Shown: piece after piece, positions 147-62,557 of the stretch
Position numbering within the stretch: the stretch's first letter is position 1
Layout of the letters: the number at the start of each line of letters is the position of its first letter
Source: Prorocentrum cordatum
Taxonomy: Eukaryota; Sar; Dinophyceae; Prorocentrales; Prorocentraceae
NCBI GenBank assembly: GCA_963575745.1
Contig: CAUYUJ010016882.1
Coordinates: 620,969 to 684,968 of the forward strand
DNA length: 64,000 nt
Direction of reading: 5' to 3'
The notes under the pieces: model-generated
The model's input: only the letters and a program-made list of their open reading frames with translations
Database searches by the model: none
What the model was told of the DNA's origin: nothing
Position numbers and translations under genes: made by a program

Positions 147-167
147 CTGGAGCCAAAATGGCTACGG
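147..167 (-). other. Relict dinoflagellate spliced leader (DinoSL)
   Basis: Read on the minus strand, these 21 bases match the conserved DinoSL (ending TTTTGGCTCAAG) at 20 of 21 positions; the one difference is near the 3' end. DinoSL is trans-spliced to mRNA 5' ends, so a genomic copy away from SL-RNA genes normally marks an mRNA that was reverse-transcribed and re-inserted. An ATG follows directly on the minus strand, but its frame stops after 11 codons, so the gene behind it is decayed or spliced, and it runs to the window edge. Bases 1-146 hold nothing else I recognise. Confidence 0.8.
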
Positions 168-6313: not shown

Positions 6314-6413
6314 NNNNNNNNNNNNNNNNNNNNNNNNNNNNNNNNNNNNNNNNNNNNNNNNNNNNNNNNNNNNNNNNNNNNNNNNNNNNNNNNNNNNNNN
6401 NNNNNNNNNNNNN
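6314..6413. other. Assembly gap (100 N)
   Basis: Exactly 100 unknown bases, probably a fixed-size placeholder rather than a measured length. It cuts off the 3' part of the minus-strand transposase-like gene. Confidence 1.
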
Positions 6414-7571: not shown

Positions 7572-7592
7572 TTTCAGCCCAAATGGCTACAG
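7572..7592 (-). other. Relict DinoSL directly before a start codon
   Basis: On the minus strand, 17 of 21 positions match DinoSL, core TAGCCATTTGGGCT. The ATG of the transposase-like gene follows after two bases. The 9510-9530 relict has the same T-to-G change in the middle of the leader. Confidence 0.65.
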
Positions 7593-9509: not shown

Positions 9510-9530
9510 ATCGAGCCCAAATGGCTATGC
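9510..9530 (-). other. Relict DinoSL upstream of the 468-aa gene
   Basis: On minus, 16 of 21 positions match DinoSL with an intact AGCCATTTGGGCTC core, sharing its internal T-to-G change with the relict at 7572-7592. More decayed than the copy at 147-167. Confidence 0.5.
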
Positions 9531-13060: not shown

Positions 13061-13203
13061 GCTCATACATCTCTTATCAACATGACCCAGCGCAGCCGCG
13101 GGCAGCGCAGCCAAGCAGACGAGCCAATTCTAGGCACAACGTCGACCACGAGCGAGATGGAGACCCTCGAAGTTTACTCTAAACATGAGCTCAAACCCTT
13201 GGT

Positions 13204-13496
13204 GTCGTATGTCAGAATCTCACATACGACAAATCTGTCGCATGTCAGAATCTTACATACGACAAATCTGTCGTATGTCAGAATCTTACATACGACAACG
13301 TTGTCGTATGTAAGAATCGTACATACGACATCTCGCTCTTATATATCATAAGGATTCTATTAACACATCCGTCGTATGTTAGAATCTTACATACGACAAC
13401 GGCGTCGTATGTAAGAATCTTACATACGACAACTTTGTCGTATGTTAGAATCTTACATACGACAACTGCGTCGTATGTTAGAATCTTACATACGAC
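13204..13496. repeat. Array of eight 27-nt palindromes
   Basis: Units begin at 13204, 13237, 13270, 13303, 13371, 13404, 13437 and 13470: two blocks of four, each with a strict 33-nt period, parted by a 41-nt AT-rich spacer. Each unit is GTCGTATGTNAGA, a single A, then the reverse complement; the unit at 13404-13430 is perfect (13+1+13). Between units only six variable bases remain. All copies could fold as hairpins. No cas-like gene is present and the spacers are far too short for CRISPR. Confidence 0.9.
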
Positions 13497-21431: not shown

Positions 21432-21630
21432 TCAAGCTATCTACCTCCAAATGCACCGCCCGAGTTAGCCGACTTAGTAACATTACTAATGGTTATAACT
21501 TACTTGCAACCTAGTTGCAACTTACTTATAACCTACTTACATGTGCTGCTAACAATTAGTAAGGCCGAGGGCCTTCAGGCGGCCCCGGCCCCGGGCTCTC
21601 CCGTGCCGTTTTGGCTCGAGACCGCCAGCC

Positions 21631-22074
21631 ATGAAGGCTAGGAAGCCCGACACAAGGATGGGGCGATGCCGCATCGGCGAGAAGAGGAGTAGGAAGCCCG
21701 ACACAAGGACGGGGCGATGCCGCGTCGGCGAGAAGAGGGCCCCCCGGAAACCGGACAACAGACCTCATTCGAGCAAGCGCGCTGGGGCGGCGGCTCGACC
21801 CACGGCCGCGTCGGCGAAGGCGGCCGCGCAGCCGCTGGCCCGGCGCGGGCTGAGCTCCAAGAAACAAGCTCTCGCAGCAGCGGGGGCTGCTGTCTTGGAG
21901 CGCGGTGGGTTGTGGGCTGAGAAGACTGCTCGGAGGACAGGCGTGGAAGAGGACGATCAATTTGATCGGGCACTCTGGTACCGTGACCATTCGGGCAACT
22001 GGTTCAAACTAGGCTCCAAGATGCCGCCAGTCGGCAGCGGCTGGCAAGAAGAATTCGCGCCCCTTCGGATGTAA
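21631..22074 (+). CDS. Small basic protein, 147 aa, unknown
   Basis: The frame opens with two tandem 51-bp units (ARKPDTRMGRCRIGEKR), continues through an Ala/Arg/Lys-rich stretch and ends in a more ordinary domain (DQFDRALWYRDHSGNWFKLG). A hairpin of the AGCA family (21868-21887) falls inside the coding frame. The C-terminal 60 residues look genuinely coding; the N-terminal part may be repeat. Confidence 0.4.
   Translation: MKARKPDTRMGRCRIGEKRSRKPDTRTGRCRVGEKRAPRKPDNRPHSSKRAGAAARPTAASAKAAAQPLARRGLSSKKQALAAAGAAVLERGGLWAEKTARRTGVEEDDQFDRALWYRDHSGNWFKLGSKMPPVGSGWQEEFAPLRM
21868..21887 (+). repeat. AGCA-loop hairpin, first (variant) copy
   Basis: GCTCTCGC, AGCA, GCGGGGGC. All eight stem pairs form only if two U-G wobbles are allowed, which works for plus-strand RNA but not for minus. 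Confidence 0.6.
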
Positions 22075-22562
22075 TAACGGGGCGGATGAACACGACGGCG
22101 CCCCCGTCTGGTTGGATGTACGTTCCTCAGGATGACGACGACAACCCGAGCGCACAAGGGGAGCGCCCCTCCGCAGCAGCGGAGGGATGCCTCACGAATT
22201 TCGCGGAGGGGGGGTGACCTCGGCGGAGGGGCGGACTCGCGCGCGCGCGGGGGAGCGCGGTTTCGCGCGTCGCGTGCGGCATCGCATGCGGTGAAAAAAA
22301 AACTGCCATCTGTGCTGTCGTCTTCGTCCTGCCCCCTCCTTTGCTTTGCTTCCCCTTGCATTCCCTCCTGCAATCCCCCGCCCGCCATCATTTCTTTTTC
22401 CTGTCCATCGCTTCCACTCACGCAACTCACACAGCGACCCCTTCTCTCACAGATGGGTACGGGGCGGGAAACCTTTCTCTCACAGAGGGGGGGCCGATGC
22501 ATCAATGGTTCTGCTGTTCAGGCGGATCGGCGCGCATCGAAAAACTGGGAAGGCCGCGTCGA

Positions 22563-22577
22563 CCCGCCGTTCGTCGC

Positions 22578-22635
<58 letters not shown>

Positions 22636-22676
22636 ATCGATCTCCCTTCTCTCTCTCTTTCGCTCTCTCTCTCTTC

Positions 22677-22729
<53 letters not shown>

Positions 22730-22745
22730 CTCTCTCTTTCTTACT
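22563..22745. repeat. CT dinucleotide microsatellite
   Basis: TCTCTC tract of about 180 bp with few interruptions. No gene. Confidence 0.95.
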
Positions 22746-22890
22746 GTCCTTCTCCTCCTTGTCAAGTGCGGGAGGCCCGCGGGCCGTGATGGCCCCTCCT
22801 CCTGTCCGCGCGCGCGCGACAGGCGTTCGCGCTCCAAGCGGGGCCCCGCAGCAGCGGGGGCAACCGTCGCGGGGCACTTGGTTTCGCGGC

Positions 22891-22912
22891 TGCCCCCGCA
22901 GCAGCGGGGGCA
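22891..22912 (+). repeat. AGCA-loop hairpin with 9-bp perfect stem
   Basis: TGCCCCCGC, AGCA, GCGGGGGCA. It follows another copy at 22846 by 50 bp and lies just before the ATG at 22922. Confidence 0.85.
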
Positions 22913-22921
22913 CCGACAAAG

Positions 22922-25352
22922 ATGGCCGAGGACATCAAGTCAGGCAACCTGAATGATTCCGCCATGTTGCGCAGCCGCCACGCCTTGAAGGACTCCGAGG
23001 GGCAGCGGTTGAAGGCCAAGATCTCCTTGGAGGATTTCAGCGCCCACCCGCAGAACAGGGGTGGAACGTGCCCCTTCCGCTGCCGGAGCGGTTAATCCCC
23101 CGCGTGGGATTCTGAAAGACAGGCTCCTCATGAACGAGGCGCAGCACGAAGCAGCGGTCGTTCAGGAACTCCCTGCCGAGAAGAAGGCCGAGCACGAGCG
23201 CCTCCATGGCAAACCGTGCAAGACGCATGCGGACCACAACAGGCAGAACATGGAGTCCGTAGAGGCTCTCCGCCTGGCGCACACAAGCCTGTCAACGTTC
23301 AACTACGGGGCGTTGAGCCACTGCACGCTGACCCTTGGTCTGATGGGCCTCAAGCACGGCGCGGTGTGGGTCATTCCCGAGGAGCACAAAGGGCATGGTT
23401 TGGAGGAGTTGCAGACAGGTCCGGGTGGCTCCTGGGATATCCCAAGGATGCGTCGCGCACCGAAGTTCAGCGAATTCATGGACGTGCTCGATAACGGTTT
23501 GCTTTGCGGGGTGCTCTCGTGGGAAATTCACTTCGATGCCGACTTCGCGCGAGGCCCAGCGCCCATTTCCGCGGCCCTGAACGACCCGCAGGGAAAAGGT
23601 GTGACCTGTCACGAAATCGAGATCCTCACGTCCGTCGGTGATCTCGTCGCCACCGCAGCAGCGGAGGCCAAGAAAGCAGCCTCGGGATCTGACAAAGAGC
23701 AGCCCTTGAATATCCCCTACGACAGTATCCTGAAGACCTGCGGGCAACGACACCCAGAGCACGCGAAGGCCAAATGGTTCGAGGACACGCCCACTTTCGC
23801 GATCAACGTAGGGGCCGCATCAGGGCAGCACATACCGCAAATTCTGGATTATGACAGACGTTGGGTGGATCTCAAAATACGCCCCCTGTCACCAGCCACA
23901 TGGGGCGTCCTCAACCAACTCCCCATTGACTGTCCCCATGTGAAGGTTGCCCTTGTCATGAGGGCGTACTCCCAAGAGCCGAAGGGCGGGCGATGCCTGG
24001 CGCCGGAAACGGCATGGGGACAAAGCGAAGGCATTCGAGTGCAGGAGCCGAATGCCTTGTCGGGGTATGTCCGTCGCATCTTGGCCCCCGCAGCAGCGGG
24101 GGCGGAGGGGGGGGGGGGGGGCGCGATTTCGACAGCGGGAGCGGTTCTGACTGCGACGGAGGCCTTCTACCAGGCGCGCGCGCGATGGCATATCGCAGCA
24201 AACCTGCGGGCGGTGCGGTCGTGGAGGCCGCGTGCGAGGCAGCGCGTCCGCACTGCGCTCAAGTGCGCGAGGCCTGCCAGACAATGGAAAATAACGCACA
24301 GGAAGACTTCCCGCCCCCTCCTGCGCCGCGGGCCGCCAAGCTGCCCGCGGCCCCCGAGAGCCCCGGCGGCTTCCGCAGCAGCGGAGGTCGCGAGGGCCCT
24401 CGCCCGCAGCCAGTGCTGATAGAGATCAACGAAGAAGACGAGCCTCTGAACAGGCAGATGTCTGAACTGTCAAAGCCCCTGAACAGCCTGGTGATGGCCC
24501 CAGTGAAATCGCGGCGCGCTTCGGCCCCGTCTGCCAATCTCGACGCAGAAAGGTGGCGCGAAGCAAGCGTCGCGGAAGTGATGACTGCCTTCCATCGACA
24601 CGCGGACATCTGCGCCCAACCCGTCCAGATGCAATGCGACGTTCAAGCCAAGAGTGTCCATGTGGTGGCTACTGAGGACATCGCCGAGGGGAGTATGATG
24701 CTCTTCCCTTGCTGCCCCACCGCGAAGATTTTCCCGGAAGTCTCGAGCAACCCGCGGGCAGCGGAGGTGCTAGTCGGTGAAGCGTCCGACTCCTGTCGAG
24801 GAAATGGAAAAGTATTGGGCACTGCCCGATTTCAAATTGCCAGAGCTGGAGCTCGAGCCCGCGCGGCAGGGAGCGGCCTCCGCAGCGTCGGAGGGCGCGG
24901 AGCTCGACGGGGCGGTCCCCGCAGCAGCGGGGGGCGCACAGGGCGAGGCCGACCAGTCAGAGAATCCGTACCACTTCAAGTTCGGAGGCACCGAGCCCTT
25001 GCATTTCTTTTGGGGAGTTGACAGGATGACAGCAGACGAACTTGCCCGAGCCCAGCTAGTGCAGGGACAGGGGCACTGGAAGTTCAACGTGGCACTTCGA
25101 CCACAAGAGTTCGCGACCATGACGAAGTGCGCGGCGTCCGCCCCCATCCGCGTCTGCAGCGCGCTTGTCCCGCGCATGGACAACGCGGTGCCTCTGGTGC
25201 GCGGAGATCGGCTGATGCTGCAGATCAGAAAGGAGAAGAAGGCCCCCGAACCCAAAAAGGAGAAGCAAGCATGGCAAAAGGAGCAGAAAGAGAAGGGGAA
25301 GAAACGGAAGAAGGACGCGGAGGAGGGACGGACAGCGACCAAGAGCGGTTAG
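22922..25352 (+). pseudogene. Unknown multi-domain gene broken over four frames
   Basis: Four consecutive segments look coding: 22922-23080 (MAEDIKSGNLNDSAMLRSRH), 23085-24105 (LKHGAVWVIPEEHKGHG; SWDIPRMRRAPKFSEFMDVL; DNGLLCGVLSWEIHF), 24180-24760 (SVHVVATEDIAEGSMMLFPC, faintly like a SET N-terminus) and 24777-25352 (EPLHFFWGVDRMTADELA, then a Lys/Glu-rich tail). The order and shared strand imply one gene. Breaks occur at a CCGCTGCCGGAGCGG palindrome (about 23078), a 15-G run (24107-24121) and a CCCGCGGGCAGCGG word (24751), so introns, hairpin insertions or decay could be the cause. It resembles, from memory, a multicopy dinoflagellate gene family of unknown function. Confidence 0.5.
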
Positions 25353-25933
25353 ATGACAATCCCTGGCCAGGGGGCCCACTTCGCGTGATCCTGCCGCAGC
25401 AGCGGAGGGCGCGCGAAACAGGGCAGCAGATGACAGCGGCAGATGATCGCCTAAGCGCAACGGCCCCGAACGGGCCGTCAGCTGGAGGGGGGCGAGGAAA
25501 GGGGGGGAGGAGGAATAGGGCGGGGGGGGAGGTCGAAGAAGGAGGGGGGAGGGTGGCAGCAGAAACAGCACAGGACAGGGATGGGGGAGGTGACGCATCC
25601 GCCGCAGCAGCGGCGGTGGCACAAGTGTTATCATGGCGGCGCGGCGGTCGCTGAGAAGTGGGGCAAGTGCGAGGTCCTGCTTGCGCTTATGCGCGCCTCT
25701 CGCCCCCTCCCCTCCTCTTCCTCCATGAGATCTCTCTCCTTTGTCCTCGCGGTGCATGCCCCCTCCCAGGTCTCGCCCTGCCCCTCTCCCTCTGCGTTCG
25801 TCCTGTCCCCCCCTCATGCCTCGCCTCCGCCTCCGCCCCCCCTCGTCCGTTCCTGCCTCCCTCCCGTGTCCTGTTTTCCTCTCTCCGATCTCATCGTCCT
25901 GCTCATCGCCCTGCCGTCCTGTTCGCGGGCCCC

Positions 25934-26071
25934 CCCTCTGTGACAGAGGGGCGGTCCGGGATGACGAGGGCCCCCCCTCTGTGACAGAGGAGCGGTCCGG
26001 GCACGCAAGGGCCCCCCTCTGTGACAGAGGGGCGGTCTTTGGAACAGGAGGGCCCCCTCCGGGACAGAGGG
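25934..26071 (+). repeat. About 40-bp tandem repeat built on CCCTCTGTGACAGAGGG
   Basis: Copies of the 17-nt palindrome at 25934, 25975, 26015 and a diverged one at 26053, each followed by CGGTC or CGG. CCCTCTGT, one central G, ACAGAGGG gives an 8-bp stem with almost no loop. Two more copies lie at 36763-36811. The region 25640-25930 before it is CT-rich, without a gene. Confidence 0.8.
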
Positions 26072-26368
26072 GCGGCGGCGGCCCTGGTCGGGGCGCCCTG
26101 CGAGCCACCGTGCCATTCTGGCAGGCGATCAGGGGGGCGAACGGGGGCTAAGGGGAGGGCAGCCAGGAGAAGGAGTTGCCCGAGACGGAAGGATAATCGA
26201 GGAGGGAGAATGATGCTGATGAGGAGGAGTAGGAGGATCTGTTGGAGACGAGGCGCCCGCTTTCCATAGCCGCTTGTTTCTCAGACGGGCGAGGCGGATC
26301 ACCAGTGAGGGGAGCAGACGCCGAGGACGCGGGCGCCTTCGCAGCAGCGAGGGTTTGCGCGCGGCGGC

Positions 26369-27424
26369 GTGAAACGCAAGGCAGAGGAAACGTGGCGGGA
26401 TGTCGTTGTCGGGAAAGCAGTGCGCCTTGATGGCGCGAGCATGGGGGTGCTCTGCGTGGCTGGCGGGCTGTGCCGGGCGCGCGATGGAGCAGCGGGATCT
26501 GCTTTGGAATGCGAGGGGCGCGACGTTTCCCTCGGCGGCGGCCATGGCCTAGACGCCTTCGTGCCCGTCGGAAAGCACCGCCCGCGGCTGCTCAAGGCGG
26601 TCGGCGGTCTCAGTGCCGTGAAGGGCGCCTTGAACGAAACGACCATGTTAGAGCATTTGCATGCGAAGTTTCGCGCAGGAGAAGGAGACAACGCGGGCGC
26701 TGCAACGGGCGCTTCGAGCGGGGGCTGCAACGGGAGCTTCCGCAGCAGCGGGGGGAGATGCTCGGGGCCCCATGGCGGATCTCCTCGGAACCGCCAAGGG
26801 CGCATCGACAGGGGAAACCCCGAAGAAACGGCAAGGATTTCCTCGAGGCACGCTCTGCAGAGCAACCGTGCCGATGTCTCCTAAGCCAGATGAGGCCGAC
26901 ACGAAACAGGTTGTAGTGCATGAGAAAGGCAAGGCGTTCTTTTCGTTCAGCGTTAGGACCTGCCATGGCTTCTGCACTACCTGCACGAGGAGAGCCAGGG
27001 CAAAAGCGTTCCCGAACCCAAAGACGACGACGAAGACGACGCTTTGGACGAGAAGCGCCCGTGGGCCACCAGGTGGTGCCCCTCTGGGACGTGGGCGGTG
27101 GAGGCCAAAGGAGGGCCAATGGCAGGCCGACAATGGGCCTCCAGGTTTCAGGACTTGGACGACGACAAATGGTCCACAGGCGTGGCGTTGACGGGGGCGA
27201 CGACGCCCTTCAAACAGTCCACCCGCGCGCAGCAGAAGCAGGTTCTCCTAGCGTTCTTGGAGGACGTGGTCCAGAAAGCCATCGCGCAGGAAACAGAGAA
27301 GCGATGCCCTCGTTACCCGCTCGCTGGCGCGCGCCGCAGCAGCGGCGCGCTGACCGCTACGGCGGCTTGTTTTGTGCAGACAGACTCGGTGTTAGCACCG
27401 CAGCAGCGGCGCGCTGACCGCTGA
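26369..27424 (+). pseudogene. Coding-like segments in three frames, unknown
   Basis: Successive plus-strand stretches of plausible protein: KRKAEETWRDVVVGKAVRLD (26372 on), PKPDEADTKQVVVHEKGKAF (about 26880) and WASRFQDLDDDKWSTGVALT (about 27145) followed by QQKQVLLAFLEDVVQKAIAQ. Each frame change lies near an AGCA-loop hairpin (26740, 27334), which suggests one spliced or broken gene, perhaps continuing the unknown gene upstream. No domain recognised. Confidence 0.35.
27329..27350 (+). repeat. AGCA-loop hairpin with 9-bp GC stem
   Basis: GCGCGCCGC, AGCA, GCGGCGCGC. The 25 bases from 27334 recur exactly at 27398-27422, a 64-bp direct repeat of the core plus its 3' flank. Confidence 0.85.
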
Positions 27425-27579
27425 GGTGGATGTCTGCGGTTTTCTGTCGACTGGACAGGGGTGGGGGCCCGCGCGGGGGATCGCGAGCCTGCGGCTCTCC
27501 AGCGTTCGCGCGCTAGAAGACGAGGGAATTCGCGGAGCCTGGCGAGGGGGGGCGGAGGGGCTGGGACAAGTAGGAGGAG

Positions 27580-27598
27580 GAGGAGGAGGAGGAGGAGG

Positions 27599-27638
<40 letters not shown>

Positions 27639-27655
27639 CCCGCAGCAGCACCGAC
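27580..27655. repeat. GGA then CAG triplet run
   Basis: GGA run (27577-27600) followed by a CAG run (27600-27650). Microsatellite; translates as poly-Gln, -Ala or -Ser. Confidence 0.9.
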
Positions 27656-27769
27656 AGGAGGATCACTGCGAGGACGCGGCCGCTTGCTTGCCCTGCGGCG
27701 CTGGGCTCGAGACAAGAGGGCGGCCGCGCGCGCGCGCGCGCGCCTTCGGCCTCATGGCCGCCGCGGCCG

Positions 27770-28092
27770 CCCCGCCCCCAGACCCAGCAGATGCTCGCCC
27801 TGCAGGCGCGCCTCTGCGCCTCGGGCACGACCGCGAGGCCAGCGAATTTGCTGAGTTTTGGTACCAACAAGACAAAACGAAAGATCCCGACCATGTGCTC
27901 ATGGACCCACGGAGACGACGGGAGACAATTTTCGGATTCGGGTACGTTATGCGCCGCAGCAGCGGCGCGGCTTGCCATTATGAATCTGGCAAACGCAAAT
28001 ATGAGAATATTCATTTATGCTCGCAGTGGCCGTGTCCCAGCGACCACCGTCTGTCGGACGGTACTGTGGACTACGCGAAGTGGTCAGACTGA
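27770..28092 (+). CDS. Unknown coding segment with normal stop
   Basis: The frame reading DREASEFAEFWYQQDKTKDP, then YVMRRSSGAACHYESGKRKY and CPSDHRLSDGTVDYAKWSD to TGA, looks like the C-terminus of a real protein. The hairpin copy at 27954 lies inside it, read as RRSSG. The start is uncertain because the upstream sequence is a triplet repeat. Confidence 0.4.
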
Positions 28093-28149
28093 CAAGCGCC
28101 CTGGCATTTAAAGCATTGCGCGGACGGGTGGCCCGAAAGGAGCTGGAGC

Positions 28150-28440
28150 CCCAGCAGCAGCGGAGGCGCCGGCCGAGGCGTGCGCGGCCCCTGTTGAGGC
28201 GGCAGCGGAGCCGCGGGCGGGCCCTGCTGAAGGCCCCGCAGCAGCGGGGCCGTCAGCGGAGGCGTGCGCGGCCCCTGCTGAAATGGCAGCGGAGCCGCAC
28301 CTGGGTTCTTCTGAAGGCCCCGCAGCAGCGGGTGCGTCAGCGGAAGCGTGCGCGGCCCCTCCTGAAGTGGCGGCGGAACCGTTCGCAGGCCCTTCTGAAG
28401 GCCCCGCAACAGCGGAGGCGTGCGCGGGTCCTGCCGGCGC
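28150..28440 (+). repeat. 84-bp tandem repeat, Ala/Pro/Glu-rich in one frame
   Basis: Three and a half units of 84 bp (28 codons). In one plus frame each reads as AAEP..GPSEGPAAAG.SAEACAAP. Each unit contains one hairpin core or variant (28151, 28236, 28320, 28401). The frame stays open downstream to about 28630, so it may be a coding repeat domain. Bases 28700-29330 contain only weak open frames. Confidence 0.7.
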
Positions 28441-29355
28441 GCATGGCGCCGACGCTATCGCCGAGGCCGCTTCCGCAGTGGAGGCTGCCCTGATGGACTC
28501 CGCGGCAACGGCAGCCTTCTCAGCAGAGGGGGTTGCCCGGGTCGCTGCCCCCCAATCCCGCCCCGCTTGCTGTCCGCGACATAGCGGAACCCGCGCTTGC
28601 AGGGGCGGAGATTGCTGCGGTGAGCGCCTCTGAAAAGACAGCCGCGAATGCAGGCGCTGCGGTTGCCCCGCCTGCGCCTGCAGGGGCACTTTCACAACGG
28701 GGCCAGAGGTGCTTCGAGAAGTTGATGAATTTGTCGCGCAGCATTCGCGGAACGCGGGGGGGGGGGCCGAGAGTGGATAGGGCATTCTGTTTTCGTAATC
28801 GCTGCACTTCTGCGGAAGGTGCGCGTCTACGCATGGGAAGGACGGAACAGAGTCGACCTTTGCAAAGCTGTGTTGCCGCCGTGGTAACTGGAGGAGTTAA
28901 CCCGCGAGCCTGCGGCGGACGCGATCGCGTGTTGCGCCGTCCCCCGAGACTCGGGGCCTCCGGACTGGGCCCCCGTGTCGGAGGAGTACCCTTTGGTTAT
29001 ATGCAATCATTTTATCGCGGGCGTCTCCACAGACTTTGTGGACATCACGGGAGATGCTTCGACGGCGGGCGGTTTCTATTATGCTCTCGGTGTGTTCGTC
29101 GCGCCCACAGTCGCAGACGGGGGCTGCGGTTTGGATCGCATGTTGCGGATGACCCAAGAGGTTTCCACGCGAGAGTCTCGCAGGGAGCTCCGCCAGGACA
29201 GTTGCTCTCTCCGACCATCCTGATCCTTCGCTTCCATCTCGGCTGCCCCCGCATGCTCCCCCCATCCTTCCCTCTCCATGTTTCCTTCTTCCCTCTCCCA
29301 TCGCGCCCCCCTCTCCCATCGCGCCCCCCCCGCCGAGTCTCCCCGCCCGTCCCCC

Positions 29356-29490
29356 ATGCCCGCCTGTGAAGAAATCGCGGGCTACATTGTGCAGAGGGTG
29401 CGTTTGGCGCGGTTCCTCGACGTCATGGTCCTGACACAAGAAGTCACTCAGGATGACGCCCAGGAGCTTCGTCGCCTGCAGAGCGCCTAG
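29356..29490 (+). CDS. Short coding-like segment
   Basis: MPACEEIAGYIVQRVRLARF to QDDAQELRRLQSA and TAG: a compact 44-codon helical peptide of normal composition, possibly a last exon of the plus-strand gene upstream. Low certainty because of size. Confidence 0.3.
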   Translation: MPACEEIAGYIVQRVRLARFLDVMVLTQEVTQDDAQELRRLQSA

Positions 29491-29522
29491 ACGACAAGAA
29501 CTTGTCCCGCAGCTGCCACGCC

Positions 29523-29687
29523 GCTCTTGTTCTTTATTTGTATTTTTTGTTTACCTTTTTTTTTTTTGTTTTTTTTTTTACTCATCTTTTCCCGTTTCTT
29601 TATTTTTGTTTTCCTTTGTTTTACTTTTTTCTTCTTTTTTTTTTTGTTTGTTTTTTTATTTAATTTTTTTTTTATTTTCCCCCGGAG
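29523..29687 (+). other. 165-nt T-rich tract ending at a splice-acceptor-like AG
   Basis: TTTTG and TTTTC runs, over 80% T, end in CCCCCGGAG before the transposase coding segment. On plus this is an extreme polypyrimidine tract; its position immediately 5' of coding sequence suggests an intron 3' end, or poly-A-derived sequence inserted on the opposite strand. Confidence 0.5.
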
Positions 29688-31411
29688 CAAAGGCCGGCGC
29701 CGCCGCAGCAGCGGCGGCGCCACCTGGGGACTTGGCAGCGGTGGAAGTCGACGCCGAGGCAGTCTGTCAGGAGCTCGCGCAAGCCATCCAATGGTGGGCA
29801 GGACTGAAAGACGCTGCGTGCGCCCTGGACGTAGCTCGGGAGTTGATGCCCGCAGAGCGGGGGGAGCAGCTCTTGAGGTGCAGGAACCGCGGCTGCGAGC
29901 GCAAAGCCCCCGCCCAAAACAAGAAGCGCGTGGTGGTCCCGTCGCTCCGGTGCTCGAGGATGGAGATAGCGGGTGCTTTCGACGAGCGCATCCGCTCTTT
30001 AGGCTGGACGCCTGGAGAGCGCTTGCCTTATGGAGGGACGCGTTCATTCATGGATGCGTGGGACTGGGGTTCCCAGTCCCATACCTCTCTCGCAAATCGC
30101 ACACCCGTTCTGCAGCGCTGGCACAAAGCTTTTCTGTCGTCGGAATACGCCTCCGCAGTGGCGGAGGCTGCGCGGCATCCAGGGGGGCGCGAGACGCAGC
30201 GCTGGCAGGGGCGCGTCCTCAAGTGGAAAGGGCGGAAAAGGATACCACAACAGGGACAGGGGCCTGCTCGAAAATGTCTTTGGCTGCGGCAAGCTCTGTT
30301 TGAATGGTGGAGTTCCATTCGGCACAGTGTGGGTTGGAAAGCTATCAAAAGTGGAATGCGAAGTACCCAAAGAGAGCCAGCGAATATAGCAAGGTTCACG
30401 CAAAGCATGCTCCAGACCAAAGCGTTGGAGCTCATGAGCGAGTACGTCGCGCAGCAGCTGCGGATCGGGCAGCGACCCGCCGCCGTGGAGTTGAGGTCGC
30501 GCTTGTGGGCCTCCTGGCGCAAGGGATGCGGCCTCAGCATGCGGTGCCCGAACAGGAAGTACACGTGCCCGCTGCCCATCTTGGAAGAGCGCCTCGAGCG
30601 AGGCTGGCTGAACGCGTTCAGGGTACGCGCCGCGCGCGTGCTACTCAACAGCGAGGATCCCGAGATGGAGAACTTCGACCAGTCGCTTTTCAACCACAAT
30701 GAAACAGGATCAGCTGGCGTGAGGACCCTCGCTGTAGCGGGGGTCGAAGTGCCACTGGTGGAGCGCCACGGCGCGGTGCGGGAGCGGTGGGCGGCCAATT
30801 TCATGATAATGAGCGACAAGGATCGACTGCGGAGAGAAGGCGTCGGTCGTTGTAGTGCCTGTTAAAGGGCGGAGGGAGGGGGGAAGAGCTGATGGCCGCT
30901 GGCGCATGCTCGAACACCTTCGGCGCCGAGGTTGGCAGGATGGGCGTCGGCGGACCACCATCGCCAAGGGGTCTTACAGGACACCGTGCGCCTCGTCACC
31001 TGGACCGGCCACCCCCCTATCTGCCCAGAGCCCTCGCAGCAGCGGGCGGGAGGAATTATGGACGGCGGACGATCAGGGCACTCACTCGCCCCGCTTGTGA
31101 GTGAGCTATATTGGCCTCGAGGGTGCACGTTCATCCCGCGCGGGGGGCGGCGCGGCCCCGGACCCCCCCAAACTGCGGGCGCAGATTTGAATCAACGCGC
31201 CAAGCGCGAGTACATGAAGAGAGAAGGAGCCGCAATGCTGATAGCCATGAGGCTGGGCCAGTGCGTCCCACAGCTGGACAAGTTAGAATGCATTGACTTG
31301 ATGGAGGAAGTGATGTCCCAAATGGGTCTTCACTTGGATGCGGCAGAGGGGTACTGGGAAACTGGTTACAAGGCAAATCTGTGGGATGCGGACTTGGACG
31401 CGCGCATATGA
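29688..31411 (+). pseudogene. DDE transposase, dinoflagellate type, frameshifted
   Basis: The frame to 30864 carries a helical N-terminal part and NFDQSLFNHNETGSAG, with the first catalytic Asp at 30677. The next block, TADDQGTHSPRL (Asp at 31068-31073), lies in another frame, and GCTFIPRGG..ADLNQRAKREY (Asp at 31184) in a third. Order and spacing fit a pogo/Tc1-like DDE catalytic core; element-encoded transposases of this kind cut and rejoin DNA as cut-and-paste enzymes. Two frame changes and the stop at 30864 mean this copy is dead or assembled with errors. A variant hairpin (30149-30168) lies in the frame. The C-terminal helical part ends at TGA 31411. Confidence 0.6.
29696..29721 (+). repeat. 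AGCA-loop hairpin with 11-bp perfect stem
   Basis: GGCGCCGCCGC, AGCA, GCGGCGGCGCC: the longest perfect stem of the family, lying at the very start of the transposase-like frame. Confidence 0.9.
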
Positions 31412-31532
31412 AAGGAGGCAGGCCAAATTCTGAGTGAAAGTTGGGGATGCGTGAGAAGTCGCCGCCGAAGTTAGCGGAGGTCGCAGAAGTGCGCAGGCGG
31501 GCCCTTGAGCGGCGGACCTCAAAGGGACATTC

Positions 31533-31841
31533 ATGGCGAACTTGGTCCTACCCACCTCGACCGCGGCCACTTTCGACGCCGCGCAGATCGCAAACCTTGG
31601 AGACGACGCGGCTCTGGGCGAGGGCGACAAGATTTGGCGTGGCATGGAGGGGGCGGAAGACGCTGCCGAGGGCCTCCGCAGCAGCGGGGGCACTGAGGGC
31701 GGCAATTCCGACGACGCCCTCGACGGAGATCCAGATGATGGGAGCGAGGGCGACGACGGGTGGAGCGCCGCTGGCGAGTTTGACAACGGGCGGGCCAGTC
31801 CAAGCCTCAACGCAGCAGCGGCGGGGGAGAGCGCGCTGTAG
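31533..31841 (+). CDS. Acidic 102-aa open frame, unknown
   Basis: MANLVLPTSTAATFDAAQIA, then a Gly/Asp/Glu-rich half ending ASPSLNAAAAGESAL and a stop. A hairpin core at 31676 is read as LRSSGG. Composition is plausible for a disordered protein; no family recognised. Confidence 0.35.
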   Translation: MANLVLPTSTAATFDAAQIANLGDDAALGEGDKIWRGMEGAEDAAEGLRSSGGTEGGNSDDALDGDPDDGSEGDDGWSAAGEFDNGRASPSLNAAAAGESAL

Positions 31842-31868
31842 GCACCGCCTGGCCCGTCGACGTTTCGT

Positions 31869-32201
31869 ATGGAAACCGCGGAGCAGACGTCTAACATGAT
31901 GAGAACGCATTCGTCGATCGCAGAGGAGTTGCGCAGCTGGGGCGACATCGCGGGGGCACGTTCATGGAGACGCAATTGCCGAACGAACGGAGGCGAGTGC
32001 GCGAACTGTCGAAGGAAGATCCCGCGGTTCAGCGGGCCCTCGCAGCATGCGAGGACGCCCGCGAGGGACGCTGAGAATATGAGAACGAAGCGGGATGTCA
32101 AGGCGCGGCGCAGAGAAGAGCTAACCCTCCTGGGGAGCGACGTGAAGAGAGCGCGCCAGCTGCTGTGGACACAGCAAGCCAAACTCTTGGACGCAGAGGC
32201 A

Positions 32202-32242
<41 letters not shown>

Positions 32243-32598
32243 AACACAGGATGAAGCATGTTGGGTTATCCGAGCTGGGCGCGGGCCTTCGCAGCTGCGG
32301 AGGCGCGGCGCGTCGAACGTCGAGGTTCGACGCGCTCAATCAGCTGGCGATGTTGGTCCCTGGGCTTTCTGCAGCTCAGCGGTCAGATTTTGAGTGGTGG
32401 AGGCGGGAATGGGACGCCGCTGGCATGGAGGACTTCGGTGGAAAGTGGGCGGAGATGTTTGCCGCGTGGTTGCAGAGCGTCATAGACGAGCACTTGGGAG
32501 GCAACCAGAGAGCTTCCAGCGTGTTTATGCGCAGTGAGACGCGACGCCGCCTGTCTGACCCCCTGGCGCTGGCGCCCCCTGCAGCCCAGGGCCTCTGA
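31869..32598 (+). pseudogene. LINE gag-like segment split by a TA microsatellite
   Basis: The first part is a basic helical stretch (VKARRREELTLLGSDVKRAR), cut at 32204-32239 by a pure TA repeat. In the shifted frame after it the protein continues: DALNQLAMLVPGLSAAQRSD, WWRREWDAAGMEDFGGKWAE, and SSVFMRSETRRRLSD to a stop at 32598. The SLFM.SETRR-type block is, from memory, typical of the segment before the endonuclease in dinoflagellate LINE-like elements. An endonuclease segment follows at 33905, consistent with that order. Confidence 0.45.
32204..32239. repeat. TA dinucleotide microsatellite
   Basis: Eighteen TA units inside the gag-like segment; not divisible into a conserved frame, so it breaks the reading frame. 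Confidence 0.95.
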
Positions 32599-32884
32599 GA
32601 GGCGCGGCCCGCCGCAGCAGCGGCGAGGCGCGGGGTGCGAAGTTGGGCAGCCGGCGCCGCTCTTCCACTTGGCTGCGACTGAGGCGTCGCGCGCGCAGAC
32701 GTAGCGCAGGCCCTATGCAGAAGAAACAGGGGGGAGGGAGGACGGGGGGGGAGGTGAGAGGAGAGGGAGGGCAGGCAGGGGGAGAAAACCACGCGGGTGT
32801 CGATCACTCCGCCCCTCCTCCTGCTCTCCCCCCTCCTTCTCCCTGGTCACCCTCCTGGTCATTATCTCATTCCTCCCTCCTCCG

Positions 32885-32890
32885 CGTCCG

Positions 32891-32955
<65 letters not shown>

Positions 32956-33162
32956 CTCTTCAATACAAATAATATATATACATATATATATCGTTTTTCT
33001 TTTTTTTTGTTTTCCTCTCTCCTCTGTCTCTCTTCTCTATCTCTCTCTCTCTATCTCTTTCTCCTTTGCCGTCGTCGTCGTTCTCGTCGCGTCGTCGTTC
33101 GTCGTCGCCGTCGGTCGTCGGTCGTCGTACGTCGTCGTCGTCGTCGTCGTCGTCGTCGGCGT

Positions 33163-33201
<39 letters not shown>

Positions 33202-33269
33202 GGGTCGTCGTCGTCGTCGTTCGTCGTCGTCGTCGTGTCGTAGTCGTCGGGTCGTCGTCGTTCGTCGGC

Positions 33270-33302
<33 letters not shown>

Positions 33303-33345
33303 ATACTCTCTCCTCTCTCTCTCTCTCTCTTTTCGCATTCCCGTC
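32885..33345. repeat. CT and CGT microsatellites
   Basis: CT tract 32890-32960 and 33025-33062, GTC triplets 33070-33270, CT again 33270-33330. No gene; the run 33340-33440 is C-rich. Confidence 0.9.
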
Positions 33346-33489
33346 TCCCCCTCTCCCCCCCCCCTCTCTCCCTGCCCGCCCTTTCCTCCCTTATCCGCCC
33401 CGTCCTCCTCCTCTTCGCCCCGCCCCCCCCCTCCCACCGCCGTTTCGGCCCCGGGAGCCCGGCTCTCACGGCCGCCCCCCCGGCAACGC

Positions 33490-33900
33490 TGGCGCAGCGA
33501 GTGGCGGCCGCGGCCGGCAGCAGCAGCAGCGCGGGCCGACTGGGCCCCGCAGCAGCGGGGCCTCGGGACCGACTGTCGGCAGCGCATACAGCGCGGAGTG
33601 GAAAGGTTTGGCGAGCGAAGGGCACTCTGGCTTTGGAGCCAGAGGGCGCTCCCGCAGCAGCGGGGGCTGCGCCGTCTGGCGTTTCAAGCTTAGCAGCGGC
33701 GGCGGACTCGGACAATGAGCCGCGATCAAAAGTTTCTACGATGCGCACCCGCCCAGGCGACTCGGCGGCGGGCCCGACCGATGACGAAGAGCCTCAGGAA
33801 GAGCGGCGCGATCAGCCGGCATTTGGGGGCTGCGCGCCGCCCGACGACGCCCAGCGGCGCAGGTCGGTTCACCGCGACACCATCCCGCCCCAGCTTCTGC
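33490..33900 (+). other. Ala/Gly-rich open segment between hairpin copies
   Basis: An open frame (RVAAAAGSSSSAGRLGPAAA; later PGDSAAGPTDDEEPQEERRD) holding two hairpin cores (33547, 33652). It may be a disordered linker preceding the endonuclease frame or non-coding. Confidence 0.3.
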
Positions 33901-33918
33901 GAGCGTGGCCCAAGTGAA

Positions 33919-34591
33919 CATGCAGCGGAACGACAAGGTGGGCAACCTTTCCGCCCTGTTCGGGAACTGGGGCCCCATGCCGAGCGAGACCAACAACGCG
34001 GACCAGCGGCGGAGAATTGAGTTGCAGCTGCGGCATTGCCCTGCTCTCCTGGCGTGCTTTGCGGAATGCGAGGCGCCGATGGAGGCAATCCCACAGCGGC
34101 CAGGAAAACCGCCGCCGCTGAAGGCGGACGCCCCCGCAGCAGCGGGAGCGTCAGCAGCGGAGGGCCGAAGCAGCAGCAGCGGTGGGCCTTTTGTCGCCCC
34201 CGCAGCGGCGACGGCGACAGCAAGAGGGAGTCGCGCTGCGAGTGTTGGCGATTGCCAACAGCTCCAGAATCGACCAGAGTACGAATACTTGACCCTGCGC
34301 GGGCGTGAGGACAAGTCCTTGTGCATCGCTGCGCGCGCAGGCCTGCGCCACGGGACGCGGCTGCCCCACTGGGAAAGGAGCGTCGACGGCCACTACAAAA
34401 CTGAAGAAGAGGACAAGATGGAAGCGTTCTCGAGGATCATGGTGGTTAAGGTCTCCTTCGATCAAACCTACGCCCACTTCGGCTCGGAGGTGCGGGCGCG
34501 CGCGGTGCACCTCCACCGCGACACGGCGAAAGCTTCCAAAGGCTTTAAGGGGGCCCACAAGACGTGGCGGCCGAGGCCGGCGGCCATATGA
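33919..34591 (+). pseudogene. Endonuclease-type (EEP) segment of a LINE-like element
   Basis: The frame MQRNDKVGNLSALFGNWGPM leads to RRRIELQLRHCPALLACFAE, EYEYLTLRGREDKSLCIAAR and MEAFSRIMVVKVSFDQTYAH, and stops after KTWRPRPAAI. Order and spacing resemble the N-terminal half of an AP-endonuclease-like domain: the Glu in FAECE would be the metal-binding residue and the RIMVVKV strand a core beta strand. An Ala-rich insert containing the hairpin at 34134 separates the first two blocks. The second half of the domain, with the Asp/His catalytic residues, and the RT are missing, so this is a fragment. Confidence 0.45.
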
Positions 34592-34689
34592 ATTCATACC
34601 ATCCCAGCCAAGCCGGGTTCCCCCCCCTGCGGTTCCTTGTCAAATAACACTATGCGGGGACATTTTTCTTTCTAACATAACACTTTTTC

Positions 34690-35130
34690 GCGAATCCCTT
34701 GCAACAAATGGGGCGAAGTGCACGCGCGCGCGTCGTCGCGCGCGCATGCCGAAATCCTTCAAAAACCTTCGGTGCCGGAAGGATTTCGCAATCGAGCTTC
34801 CGAACAACATGCAAAAACACATGGTTTCGCAACACTGAATTGCTAAAAAAACTTTCGCGCGAGCTCTTGCAACATCTTAAGAAAACCATCGGTTTTTCAA
34901 GATTTTCACAAAATGCTACGAAACGGGCTTCGCGCGCGCATGTCGAAATCTGTCGAACAACCTTGCGCGTGTGCCGTCGCGAGAATCCTCTGCAACAAAA
35001 TGGGACGAAGTGCAGACGCGCGCGTCGTCGCGGACGTATGCCGAAAACCTTCAAAACCCATCGGTTTCGGAAGGATTTCAAAATCGTGCGTCCAAAAAAC
35101 CTACAAGAACCCCAGGTTTCGCAACACGGA
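34690..35130. repeat. Two diverged direct repeats of about 140 bp
   Basis: TGCAACAAATGGGGCGAAGT through CCGGAAGGATTTC (34697-34790) recurs as TGCAACAAAATGGGACGAAG through TCGGAAGGATTTC (34990-35082), with a third partial relative between. Unlike its neighbours it is rich in CGCG and TTTCG words. Confidence 0.7.
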
Positions 35131-35159
35131 TTTTCAACAAAAGCGTGCGCGCGCGCTCT

Positions 35160-35195
35160 TGCGTCGTCGTCGTCGTCGTCGTCCTCCCTCCTCCC

Positions 35196-35227
<32 letters not shown>

Positions 35228-35358
35228 TTCTGTCTTTCCTCGTCGTCGTTGTCGTCGTCTTGGCGTCGTCGTCGTTTCCGTCGTCGTTGTCGCCGTGGTC
35301 GTCCTTCCTCCCTCGTTGTCTTAGTCGGCGTCTCGTCGTTGTCCCTCCTATTTCGTCG

Positions 35359-35401
<43 letters not shown>

Positions 35402-35860
35402 GGTCTTCACTCCTCCCTCGTCGTTATCCTCCTCCCTCGTCGTCGTCGTCCGTCGTCGGCGTCTCGTCGTCGTCCCTCCTATTTCGTCGCCGGCGTCGTC
35501 GTCTTCGTCGTCGTTGTCATCGTCGTCGTCTTCCCTCCTCCCTCGTCGTTGTCGTCGTCGGCGTCGCCGTCCTTCCTCCTTCTTCGTCGTTGGCGTCGTC
35601 GCCGTCTTCCCTCCTCCATCGTCGTTGTCGTCGTTGTCGCCGTCGTCGTTTTTTCTCCTCCCTCGTCGTCGTCTCCGTTAGCGACGTCGTCGTCGTCTTC
35701 GTCGTCGTCGTCGGCGTCGTTGTCGTCGTCGTCGGTGTCGTCGTCGTCGTCGTTGTCGCCGTCGAAAAACATTGGAGACGTCGTCGGTGTCGTCGCAGTC
35801 GCTGTCGGCGGCGCCGTCGTCGTCGATGTCGCTGTCGTCGTCGGCGTCGGTGTCGTGGCC
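35160..35860. repeat. GTC triplet microsatellite, 700 bp
   Basis: GTCGTC with interspersed CTCCCTC words. Long Ser/Arg/Val (plus) and Asp/Thr/Arg (minus) frames are artefacts. Confidence 0.95.
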
Positions 35861-35989
35861 AAGTGCCATGTGGTACCTACCGTCACGGTCTTGTCTGAAG
35901 AGGTCTTGCGACCAAGTTGCGGGTGGGAGGGTGGGATGTTTGCACGAGCAGTGGAGAGGGCAGCTTCAAGACGGTCAAGATTAATCACC

Positions 35990-36456
35990 CCCTAGGCGGC
36001 GGCCGACCCCGCAGTGGCCATCTCCCAGGCCTGCGCCGCTGGAGCAGCGAGGGCAAGGGTTGCAAGAGCAGCAGCCGCAGGAGGCGCCGCGGCATCAGCC
36101 GCCAGAGCCCCCGCAGCAGCGGGGGCCACAGACGCCATGGCAGCGCCCAACAGACGGGGGGTGGCGCAGGGATGAGCGGCGCGGCAAATCGTGGGACTGG
36201 TGGCGCACCGGGGAGGGCGAGGGGCGCAAGTGGCAACAGCCGAGCGGCGCGGCTTCCTCGGTGCAGGACCGCAGGGTCGACTCCGCCTGGCGCGACATGC
36301 AAGTGGCATTCGGCAGCGACCCGCGCCCCAGTGGCTGGTGCAGCAGCCACAGTGGGTGGAGTGGCGGCCAGGGGCGCTGGGAGGCCACGACCACGACCAC
36401 CTGGAGGTGGGCCGAACACCCCCCCGAGACCAATCCCTGGGAAGAACTTAGCTGAA
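35990..36456 (+). CDS. Trp/Arg/Gly-rich open segment, uncertain
   Basis: The frame reads QRPTDGGWRRDERRGKSWDW, then VDSAWRDMQVAFGSDPRPSG and WRWAEHPPETNPWEELS to a stop. The Trp content and consistent frame suggest real coding, perhaps an RNA-binding low-complexity tail. One hairpin core (36111) lies inside, read as PQQRG. Start unclear. Confidence 0.3.
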
Positions 36457-36762
36457 CCATCGCACATGTGCCGCCCCTCCGCAGCAGCGGGGGGAGGGCC
36501 TCATCAGTCGAAGGGCGCCCTCTCCGCAGCAGCGGAGGCCTTGCCAGTGCATCGCGGGCGGCGGCGAGTCGCGCGCGCCGCCGTGCTCGGCGACCGCTGC
36601 CAGAGCGGAGAAGGAAAAAGAAACGGTGTTTTCATCGTTGCCGTCGTTGCCTCTTCTCCTTCATCGTTTTCTCCCCCCCCTCCAATCCCCCATCCCGCCG
36701 TCGCATTTGATCGTCTCCAATCGTATTGGGAGCTCCCGCGGCAGAAGAGCACCCAGAACGAG

Positions 36763-36811
36763 CTCCTCCGTGACAGAGGGGGGCCATCTTAGGCCCCTCT
36801 GTGACAGAGGG
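36763..36811 (+). repeat. Two more copies of CCCTCTGTGACAGAGGG
   Basis: A variant (CTCCGTGACAGAGGGG) at about 36765 and an exact 17-nt copy at 36795-36811, about 30 bp apart. Both belong to the family at 25934-26071. Bases 36540-36760 and 36830-37020 hold nothing else supported. Confidence 0.75.
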
Positions 36812-43887: not shown

Positions 43888-44003
43888 TTACCACACCTGG
43901 CGATTGGTAAGACGTGTATGGTTTACGGGCTTGGTTACCACACCTTGCGATTAAAGGGCCGAGGGAGTTCTCGCAGTTTGGGTTACCACGCCTTGCGATG
44001 GAT
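43888..44003. repeat. GGTTACCACNCCTTGCGAT, three copies
   Basis: Copies at about 43888, 43933 and 43981, spaced 45-48 bp, directly before the 73-bp tandem array. Confidence 0.75.
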
Positions 44004-44013
44004 GTGCGTGAAG

Positions 44014-44600
44014 GGTGGCACCGAATTTCAGAAATGTGGCAAATCCCATGTGTTTTTGGACCCTGACCCCGCGGATCTGCGTGAGGGGTGGCACCGAATT
44101 TCAGAAATGTGGCAAATCCCATGTGTTTTTGGACCCTGACCCCGCGGATCTGCGTGAGGGGTGGCACCGAATTTCAGAAATGTGGCAAATCCCTTGTGTT
44201 TTTGGACCCTGACCCCGCGGATCTGCGTGAGGGGTGGCACCGAATTTCAGAAATGTGGCAAATCCCATGTGTTTTTGGACCCTGACCCCGCGGATCTGCG
44301 TGAGGGGTGGCACCGAATTTCAGAAATGTGGCAAATCCCATGTGTTTTTGGACCCTGACCCCGCGGATCTGCGTGAGGGGTGGCACCGAATTTCAGAAAT
44401 GTAGCAAATCCCCTGTGTTTTTGGACCCTGACCCCGCGGATCTGCGTGAGGGGTGGCACCGAATTTCAGAAATGTGGCAAATCCCATGTGTTTTTGGACC
44501 CTGACCCCGCGGATCTGCGTGAGGGGTGGCACCGAATTTCAGAAATGTGGCAAATCCCATGTGTTTTTGGACCCTGACCCCGCGGATCTGCGTGAGGGGT
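44014..44600. repeat. 73-bp tandem array, eight copies
   Basis: The unit begins GTGGCACCGAATTTCAGAAA and contains TTTTTGGACCCTGACCCCGC. The period is exactly 73 bp, copies nearly identical (CCCATG, CCCTTG or CCCCTG at one spot). Since 73 is not divisible by three, the reading frame rotates, which argues against coding. Confidence 0.95.
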
Positions 44601-44687
44601 GTCGATTTCGAGCCCCCCCAGCAATTCAGACAACGCGCCCAGGGGGTGCTAAAAATCCCGTTTGGGCCTCCCCCCCCCTCGCGCGGT

Positions 44688-60080: not shown

Positions 60081-60081
60081 C

Positions 60082-61080: not shown

Positions 61081-61462
61081 GCCGACCCTGCTTCCGCTCG
61101 GGGGCGAGACGAGGCAGCTGAGCCTGGGCGCGAGGCGCGGAACAGGCGTGACATCGTCCTCGGGCTTGGCGCGGACTTCATCGCGGAGCCTCCGGGGCTC
61201 GAGCGCCGGCGCGCTGGCGGCGGCGGCCGCGGCGGGTCTTTGGGGGGCGCGTTGCCTGACAGCGGCAGCCTCGCAACCCCCGGACCTGCGGGGGGGCCCG
61301 CCGCTGAGGGCGCGGCAGGCGCTGGAGCGGACGGCGCAGAATCGGCAGGCCGCCGAGGCTGCCGACCCGCGCTGGGCGCTGCTGGCCTGGAGGGGAAAGA
61401 AGTCGCGCCTCGAGGAGAGAAGCATTTCAAAGAAGGTGACCGAGGACTACGAGTTCTAACCT

Positions 61463-62378: not shown

Positions 62379-62429
62379 CGCCGACGCCATCCCGAGGGCC
62401 GACGGCCCAGCGGGGGCGCGCGAGGAGGC

Positions 62430-62557
62430 GAGGCTTCCTTGGGGTTTTCTCGGGGCCAGGCCGCCTCACGAGAGCGGTGCGGAGTCGCAATATTCGAGCT
62501 GAAGGCTTTGATCTCGCCGATGGGATTGATTTTCTTGATGGGTTCAGGAACGTCTGA
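62430..62557 (+). pseudogene. Possible methyltransferase start, truncated
   Basis: In a frame shifted from the recombinase: GFLGVFSGPGRLTRAVRSRN and IRAEGFDLADGIDFLDGFRN, then a stop. F-x-G-x-G-x-L-x-x-A-V followed 10 residues later by an acidic FDLADG fits motif I and II of SAM-dependent methyltransferases, and some DIRS-type elements carry a methyltransferase. Only about 40 residues remain before a CT-rich tract and the 90-bp array. Confidence 0.35.

Follow-up and report, generated by a model that had tools for sequence, protein, structure and literature searches.

Why should one short hairpin recur along some 15 kb of dinoflagellate DNA and always face the same way? The question is raised by a 64,000-nucleotide stretch of Prorocentrum cordatum (contig CAUYUJ010016882.1, positions 620,969 to 684,968 of the forward strand; hereafter the window), in which a stem-loop of the consensus GCCNCCGC-AGCA-GCGGN'GGC, with an 8 base pair (bp) stem whose outer pairs vary while staying complementary and a nearly constant AGCA loop, is present in about 30 copies, exact and variant, on the coding strand in and around genes. 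All copies studied here lie in one 15 kb region. Our reading, offered tentatively and at a little under even confidence, is that they form an undescribed family of stem-loops in the sense RNA of messenger RNAs (mRNAs), probably serving as a protein-binding signal.

In a scan of the whole window, the core 12-mer CCGCAGCAGCGG was found 24 times, spanning 22171 to 36535, on the + strand in every case; its reverse form, CCGCTGCTGCGG, has 0 copies in the window, and the other 49 kb are without an exact core. Chance would supply a mean of 0.05 copies (maximum 1, 100 dinucleotide shuffles of the window) or, in a null from a third-order Markov model fitted to the hairpin region with the cores masked, 0.095 (maximum 1, 200 runs, both strands). 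The original prediction of 24 exact cores confined to 14.7 kb was thereby reproduced in count and span. Its companion claim, that the variants too are restricted to this region, stood for the six one-mismatch copies on the + strand, all of which lie there, and failed for one further copy on the - strand, outside the region at 17434. Two-mismatch copies number 28 inside and 14 outside the region on the + strand, and 29 inside and 8 outside on the - strand, counts that also take in CAG repeats and matches that hit the same copies in a shifted register. Two features go beyond what had been predicted: the single orientation of all copies, and their presence within coding sequence, where more than one frame is used.

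When stems perfect over 6 bp or more were scanned with all 256 four-base loops, which is independent of the choice of core, AGCA was found 14 times in the region, each time in an exact copy, and 0 times outside it, and the reverse loop TGCT was found on no such stem anywhere in the window; the ATAT (11) and TATA (10) loops come from a single AT repeat (32205-32240), and apart from these three no loop closed more than 2 perfect stems in the region. A covariance model of 28 members, run unfiltered on both strands of the window, gave 0 matches of at least 17 bits outside 21866-36541 (the best scored 16.6 and 16.4 bits), and its stronger antisense matches are the same loci read backwards. Among control loci chosen because they contain the core in a 16- or 18-base form (n=113), the 12-mer occurs once in 111, twice in 1 and three times in 1, and two further viral loci carry it once each. 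Rfam gave 0 matches above gathering score in the window, and no terminal repeats bounding the region were found among the listed 20 of 31 direct families and 25 of 102 inverted pairs, which are mostly simple repeats.

Perfect stems in the exact copies range from 4 to 11 bp, and the flank examples first quoted for them are all right (CCCT/AGGG at 22167, GCGCG/CGCGC at 27329, GGCC/GGCC at 28232 and GGCGCCG/CGGCGCC at 29696, with perfect stems of 8, 9, 8 and 11 bp, respectively). The general statement that flanks differ from copy to copy and still pair needs qualifying: the first flank pair is Watson-Crick in 18/24 exact copies, T.G in 3/24 and unpaired in 3/24, so that in some the extension is missing. 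Comparison with shuffled flanks, which had been proposed as a check, was made by re-pairing flanks between copies, and gave Watson-Crick pairs in 18, 19 and 17 of 24 copies at flank pairs 1, 3 and 4 (vs. 8.1, 12.8 and 10.4) and in 16 at pair 7 (vs. 9.3, also significant); pairs 5 and 6 are not significant, and pair 2 is uninformative because it is nearly fixed as C-G or T-G. Summed contiguous Watson-Crick extension reached 55 vs. 19.9 (standard deviation (sd) 6.2) after re-pairing, and the result changes little without the two copies, 27398 and 28320, whose flanks are shared with a neighbour copy by local duplication. Direct repeats beside the stems are at the chance level (longest shared word 1.96 vs. 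1.94 re-paired, p=0.505), which bears out the earlier argument against a transposon with target duplication.

Covariation was scored in an alignment, A5, of 22 exact copies and 6 variants (28 members; 27398, 28320, 24880, 28152, 31810, 32040, 34171 and the later-found 28512 and 30723 stand outside it). Its score was 0.346 vs. 0.157 in shuffles (sd 0.023; 0/500 as high), standard pairs filled 94.2% of the cells of the 8 bp stem vs. 83.7% (0/500), and double-change cells numbered 21 vs. 7.3 (0/500). Column pair 6-19 illustrates the exchange (CG 11, GC 5, UA 5, UG 4, other 3), while the three innermost stem pairs are invariant, for the exact copies by choice of core. Of two double changes reported inside the core, TCGC/GCGA at 26339 is right, and the hairpin at 32038-32054 is a looser relative with a three-base loop. 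Flank re-pairing and covariation together uphold the proposal that a structure is kept, beyond a fixed sequence.

The copies lie in and beside coding sequence, and two frames are supported by relatives. The frame 23061-24419 has eight relatives (52-78% identity, 7993 candidates scored), and when the frames up to 25388 are joined with it they match one of these, P0002, over most of the length. Relatives match the reading frame around seven copies, of which six spell Ala-Ala-Ala and one spells Arg-Ser-Ser-Gly. At 23653, all eight relatives align gapless through the alanine triplet and have it. At 24088, six relatives align gapless up to the site and 4/6 have the triplet (P0004 ends there); P0001 (PAEA) and P0005 (VRAK) are aligned gapless without the motif, so that insertion is contradicted at 24088, and only there. 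At 24373, in the other frame, P0002 and P0003 have RSSG; P0005 has RSCG, whose residues would fit an AGCT loop like that of 32289. At 24919, P0002 agrees throughout and P0003 agrees up to the triplet, where the alignment ends; at 33652, the P0011 match is 29 residues of low complexity; and at 34134, P0009 agrees, with a long gap after the hairpin. The copy at 25394 lies past the TGA at which P0002, too, comes to its end; in the window itself the frame has already stopped at 25350.

Scored by codon use, the best frame of 30 copies and variants is Ala in 15, RSSG in 8 and PQQR in 7, with many margins small; with frames so mixed, it is the nucleotide string that is constant and the peptide that varies. 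The first flank pair is paired in 5/6 RSSG-frame or untranslated copies (4 Watson-Crick, 1 T.G) and in 5/6 Ala-frame copies. Of the six Ala runs in frames taken as coding, four consist of GCA GCA GCG, one extends to six Ala with GCA GCA GCG inside it, and one is GCA GCG GCG, whereas GCA GCA GCG is expected at 0.0102 per triplet from the Ala codons outside hairpins (GCG 79, GCC 58, GCA 29, GCT 21; 187 in seven frame stretches taken as coding, of which 28888-29200 was matched to P0012 by eye and parts of others exceed the aligned stretch). This choice of Ala codons is unexplained by peptide constraint alone. Across 12 relatives the peptide pattern [STPA]AAA[EGADV] was counted 25 times (21 runs) vs. 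0.97 in shuffled proteins, an excess that is weak because these proteins are related to one another and because Ala clusters are broken up by shuffling.

We reasoned that an RNA signal accounts better than an insertion or a peptide would for the combination seen here: a loop that hardly varies, outer pairs that can be exchanged, a single strand, the use of more than one frame, one copy past the end of the coding part and, at one site, absence without a gap. Placement on the coding strand in more than one reading frame suggests that the signal is read in RNA, not in protein, and two properties of mRNA stem-loops were found here, namely compensatory stem changes around a conserved loop (by the covariation score) and sense-strand specificity (24/24 along supported frames). 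Sense-strand wobble is supportive, short of decisive: over flank pairs 1-4 of the 24 exact copies, G.T outnumbers A.C by 11 to 3 (binomial p=0.029). The hairpins would then be cis-acting stem-loops in sense RNA from a dinoflagellate array whose genes all point one way; an RNA-binding factor would recognise, on the mRNA, the loop together with the upper stem and, once bound, might act post-transcriptionally, on stability, translation, localisation or packaging. Such a factor would read RNA, and the RNA motif would be kept while codons varied with frame. A bolder version, which we consider possible and on balance unlikely, is a frame-independent RNA code in which one dinoflagellate RNA-binding protein reads AGCA stem-loops repeated along each mRNA of a gene set, conserved coding sequence included, as a post-transcriptional regulon.

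Several observations weigh against an RNA signal. Two further covariation measures of A5 are not significant (pairs with change on both sides, 4 vs. 2.9, 93/500; further pair types, 11 vs. 9.2, 50/500), and the shuffles ignore the kinship of the copies. The wobble excess is small, the larger A5 count (G.T 17 vs. A.C 3) carries a bias, since its six variants were selected in part for their folding, the sense fold is more stable than the antisense in only 21/34, and three exact copies are unpaired at the first flank. Regular spacing is not supported (coefficient of variation 0.89 vs. 0.96 uniform, p=0.32, n=35). Hairpins in the relatives would follow only by way of their peptides: at 24088 the peptide fits a hairpin in only 4/6 relatives, and at the six other supported sites relatives share the peptide or a variant that fits, which gives no test of insertion. 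The gene at 22922..25388 may, moreover, be decayed or mis-sequenced, given three frame changes (~23070, 24190-24230 and 24777), which by eye fall at homopolymers or simple repeats, and a premature stop at 25350-25352, before the TGA at 25386-25388 where P0002 ends.

The main rival, which we regard as rather unlikely, is a process at the DNA level, in which replication template switching perfects near-palindromes and local duplication spreads the hairpins, with no RNA function. Template-switch correction of imperfect palindromes would equally yield matched flanks, without insertion, and this too counts against an RNA signal; hairpin-carrying duplications are seen here (27334/27398, and the 84-base repeat 28142-28421), and template switching has been proposed as one possible mechanism for the coding palindromes of nematomorphs (PMC6649704). 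Such a process, however, leaves unexplained the one orientation of 24/24 copies, the common loop and inner stem at unrelated sites, and the absence from the other 49 kb.

The setting is very likely dinoflagellate nuclear DNA, as judged from GC content, simple repeats and a match of 20/21 bases (score 38) at 147-167 (- strand) to the dinoflagellate spliced-leader sequence (PMC6050394, PMC7245778). Weaker matches lie at 21601-21620 (+, 28), 7572-7590 (-, 28), 9510-9527 (-, 26) and 26108-26123 (+, 22); in ten mononucleotide shuffles of one strand of the window the maxima were 20 to 26, and the 9527 and 26108 matches are therefore not above chance. The 21601 relic, on the sense strand of the array, adjoins the ATG of the first open frame in the hairpin region. 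It would suit a second rival, that a LINE-type (long interspersed nuclear element) reverse transcriptase recognises the hairpin, which marks RNAs to be copied back and hence gathers in retrogene-like units; stem-loop recognition by such an enzyme has been reported for stringent LINEs (PMC5135761), and relatives of the frame 33905-34588 may be endonuclease-like. We think this improbable: - strand open frames near the relics at 7590 and 9527 are without exact or one-mismatch copies, and in the hairpin region copies spread over whole genes, not 3' ends.

Equally improbable, in our view, is a protein-driven or CNG low-complexity origin, in which the string arises from Ala-rich linkers and slippage of trinucleotides, with folding as a by-product. 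CCG CAG CAG CGG is indeed composed of CNG triplets, 6/7 supported copies encode Ala-Ala-Ala, and the window has many simple triplet repeats. Set against this are one supported copy in the other frame and one beyond the coding end, GCA GCA GCG in 5/6 Ala runs though GCA makes up 29/187 Ala codons elsewhere, flanks such as TCC/GGA that are not CNG repeats, and the covariation of the flanks. A peptide-only origin of the hairpins was likewise disfavoured, on the grounds of frame, choice of codons and the copy lying past the coding end. An inserted selfish palindromic element of the Volvox organelle or Rickettsia type would share a constant loop and variable stem with Volvox plastid palindromes (PMC2670323) and, if old, would be compatible with the 6/7 supported sites where relatives share the peptide or a fitting variant, but is very improbable given one orientation (24 +, 0 -), gapless relatives without the motif at 24088 and direct repeats at the chance level.

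To our knowledge, few RNA signals for dinoflagellate post-transcriptional control are known. If the RNA reading is true, repeated covarying stem-loops that cross frames would be a concrete signal of this kind and a handle on the binding protein; if the cause is a DNA process, nuclear genes would harbour an unusual activity that makes palindromes. Gene control in dinoflagellates is described as mainly post-transcriptional (PMC12787238). Among the literature matches listed, titles and abstract openings give no account of such hairpins in dinoflagellate genes, the 14 listed papers that contain the 12-mer string include none on dinoflagellates by title, and the dinoflagellate review passages contain no matching element.

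Features of the hairpin region, by position in the window
Feature	Position	Strand	Remarks
Probable spliced-leader relic	21601..21620	+	ends 10 bases before ATG 21631; score 28; 2 mismatches in 16 bases
Variant hairpin AGCTCTCGC-AGCA-GCGGGGGCT	21867..21888	+	9 bp, two T.G; best frame Ala-Ala-Ala (codon score)
Exact copy 22171	22167..22186	+	8 bp stem
Exact copy 22846	22844..22859	+	upstream of ATG 22922
Exact copy 22896	22891..22912	+	9 bp stem; just upstream of ATG 22922
Gene with relatives P0001-P0008	22922..25388	+	carries 23653, 24088, 24373, 24880, 24919
Exact copy 23653	23653..23664	+	in VATAAAEAK
Exact copy 24088	24084..24103	+	8 bp stem; in LAPAAAGA
Exact copy 24373	24372..24385	+	other frame, FRSSGGRE; RSSGGRE in P0002, RSSGGGE in P0003
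Variant hairpin CCTCCG-CAGCGT-CGGAGG (24880)	24877..24894	+	
Exact copy 24919	24917..24932	+	in AVPAAAGGA
Exact copy 25394	25394..25405	+	5 bases past TGA 25386-25388
Exact copy 25602	25599..25616	+	7 bp stem
Variant CCTTCGC-AGCA-GCGAGGG	26336..26353	+	compensated core change
Exact copy 26740	26740..26751	+	T.G flanks
Exact copy 27334	27329..27350	+	9 bp stem
Exact copy 27398	27398..27409	+	right flank duplicated from 27334; left flank unpaired
Exact copy 27954	27951..27968	+	7 bp Watson-Crick stem
84-base tandem repeat	28142..28421	+	holds 28152 (variant), 28236, 28320, 28404 (variant)
Divergent member, loop AGCA, inner stem changed	28514..28533	+	covariance model 28512-28535, 19.5 bits
Exact copy 29703	29696..29721	+	11 bp stem; in AAAAAAPPGD; P0012 aligned from base 29705
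Variant GCCTCCGC-AGTG-GCGGAGGC	30149..30168	+	
Divergent member	30723..30746	+	covariance model, 17.9 bits
Variant 31034	31028..31051	+	
Exact copy 31676	31670..31693	+	best frame Arg-Ser-Ser-Gly (codon score)
Divergent hairpin CCTCGCA-GCA-TGCGAGG	32038..32054	+	three-base loop
Variant 32289, loop AGCT	32283..32306	+	
Exact copy 32612	32610..32625	+	
Exact copy 33547	33543..33562	+	8 bp stem
Exact copy 33652	33646..33669	+	in APAAAGAAPSGVSS; APAAAGAAASGVSS in P0011; weakest of seven supported sites
Open frame with relatives P0009-P0011	33785-34588 (feature part 33905..34588)	+	
Exact copy 34134	34128..34151	+	in DAPAAAGAS; same peptide in P0009
Exact copy 36111	36107..36126	+	best frame Pro-Gln-Gln-Arg, small codon-score margin; no known relative
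Exact copy 36479	36473..36496	+	
Exact copy 36524	36518..36541	+	

Pfam gave no match for 10 window frames and none for P0002, P0003, P0005 or P0009-P0011 (10 proteins searched, with one match below cut-off), precomputed Pfam matches were not listed for any of the twelve relatives, and a fold prediction for the P0002 family was unusable (mean predicted local distance difference test score 35.7). P0009 and P0010 continue into a GDFN motif, which we take to be endonuclease-like; the window frame 33785-34588 stops short of it. The frame 29702-30862 has one relative, P0012; a T-rich stretch at 29510-29690 (by eye), an intron or insertion, breaks a frame that is continuous in P0012, and hairpin 29703 opens the next coding part after it. 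Among the frames tested none was recognised as a viral coat or polymerase gene, no relatives of three protein groups were found in viral contigs, and none of one protein group in prokaryote genomes.

A second hairpin family, CCCCTCTG-TGA-CAGAGGGG and variants, lies in the same region (25933-26073 and 36764-36811; six + copies at no more than 2 mismatches), with elsewhere only a 3-mismatch match at 57774, and partial forms at 22440-22489. Elsewhere in the window we noted a 33-base tandem array at 13203-13496 whose units form ACATACGAC hairpins, a 73-base tandem repeat at 44000-44601 (~8 copies, 98% matches), 100 N at 6314-6413 within open frames (a gap or masked stretch), and a row of long + strand frames at 59081-62557 with no Pfam match and no exact core; third-position GC is 0.85 at 61440-62375.

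How do these hairpins compare with known systems? Rickettsia palindromic elements are insertions of ~100 bases or more. The hairpins resemble them in being palindromes in coding sequence (PMC6649704), and differ from them in that insertion is contradicted at one tested site. Nematomorph mitochondrial coding palindromes, described as perfect and up to 284 bp, are likewise inverted repeats kept in coding sequence with the protein conserved (PMC6649704); unlike their long perfect arms, the stems here are no longer than 11 bp, share one core and loop, and sit in nuclear-type DNA. The palindromes of Volvox carteri organelles are similar in being short hairpins with a near-constant loop, a variable stem and many copies, and the plastid loops are reported as mostly TAAA or TTTA in repeats that are intergenic and intronic, a ribosomal RNA module excepted (PMC2670323), whereas the present hairpins keep a single-strand orientation and lie in genes. 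Dinoflagellate introners, which are introns whose ends bear inverted and direct repeats, share the dinoflagellate host, inverted repeats and many copies (PMC7789003, PMC11453091). In contrast to introners, the hairpins lie in open frames, and seven are read as codons in relative-matched frames. The packaging stem-loops of satellite tobacco necrosis virus follow a dispersed pattern. Like them, the hairpins are many, similar and built on a constant loop motif, in the viral case within one RNA (PMC3593212); unlike viral packaging signals, they come with no coat or polymerase gene recognised in the frames tested. The 3' stem-loops of stringent LINEs are likewise sense-RNA stem-loops read by a protein (PMC5135761), the protein here being predicted; where stringent LINEs carry their site in the 3' untranslated part, dozens of hairpins run along the genes of the present array.

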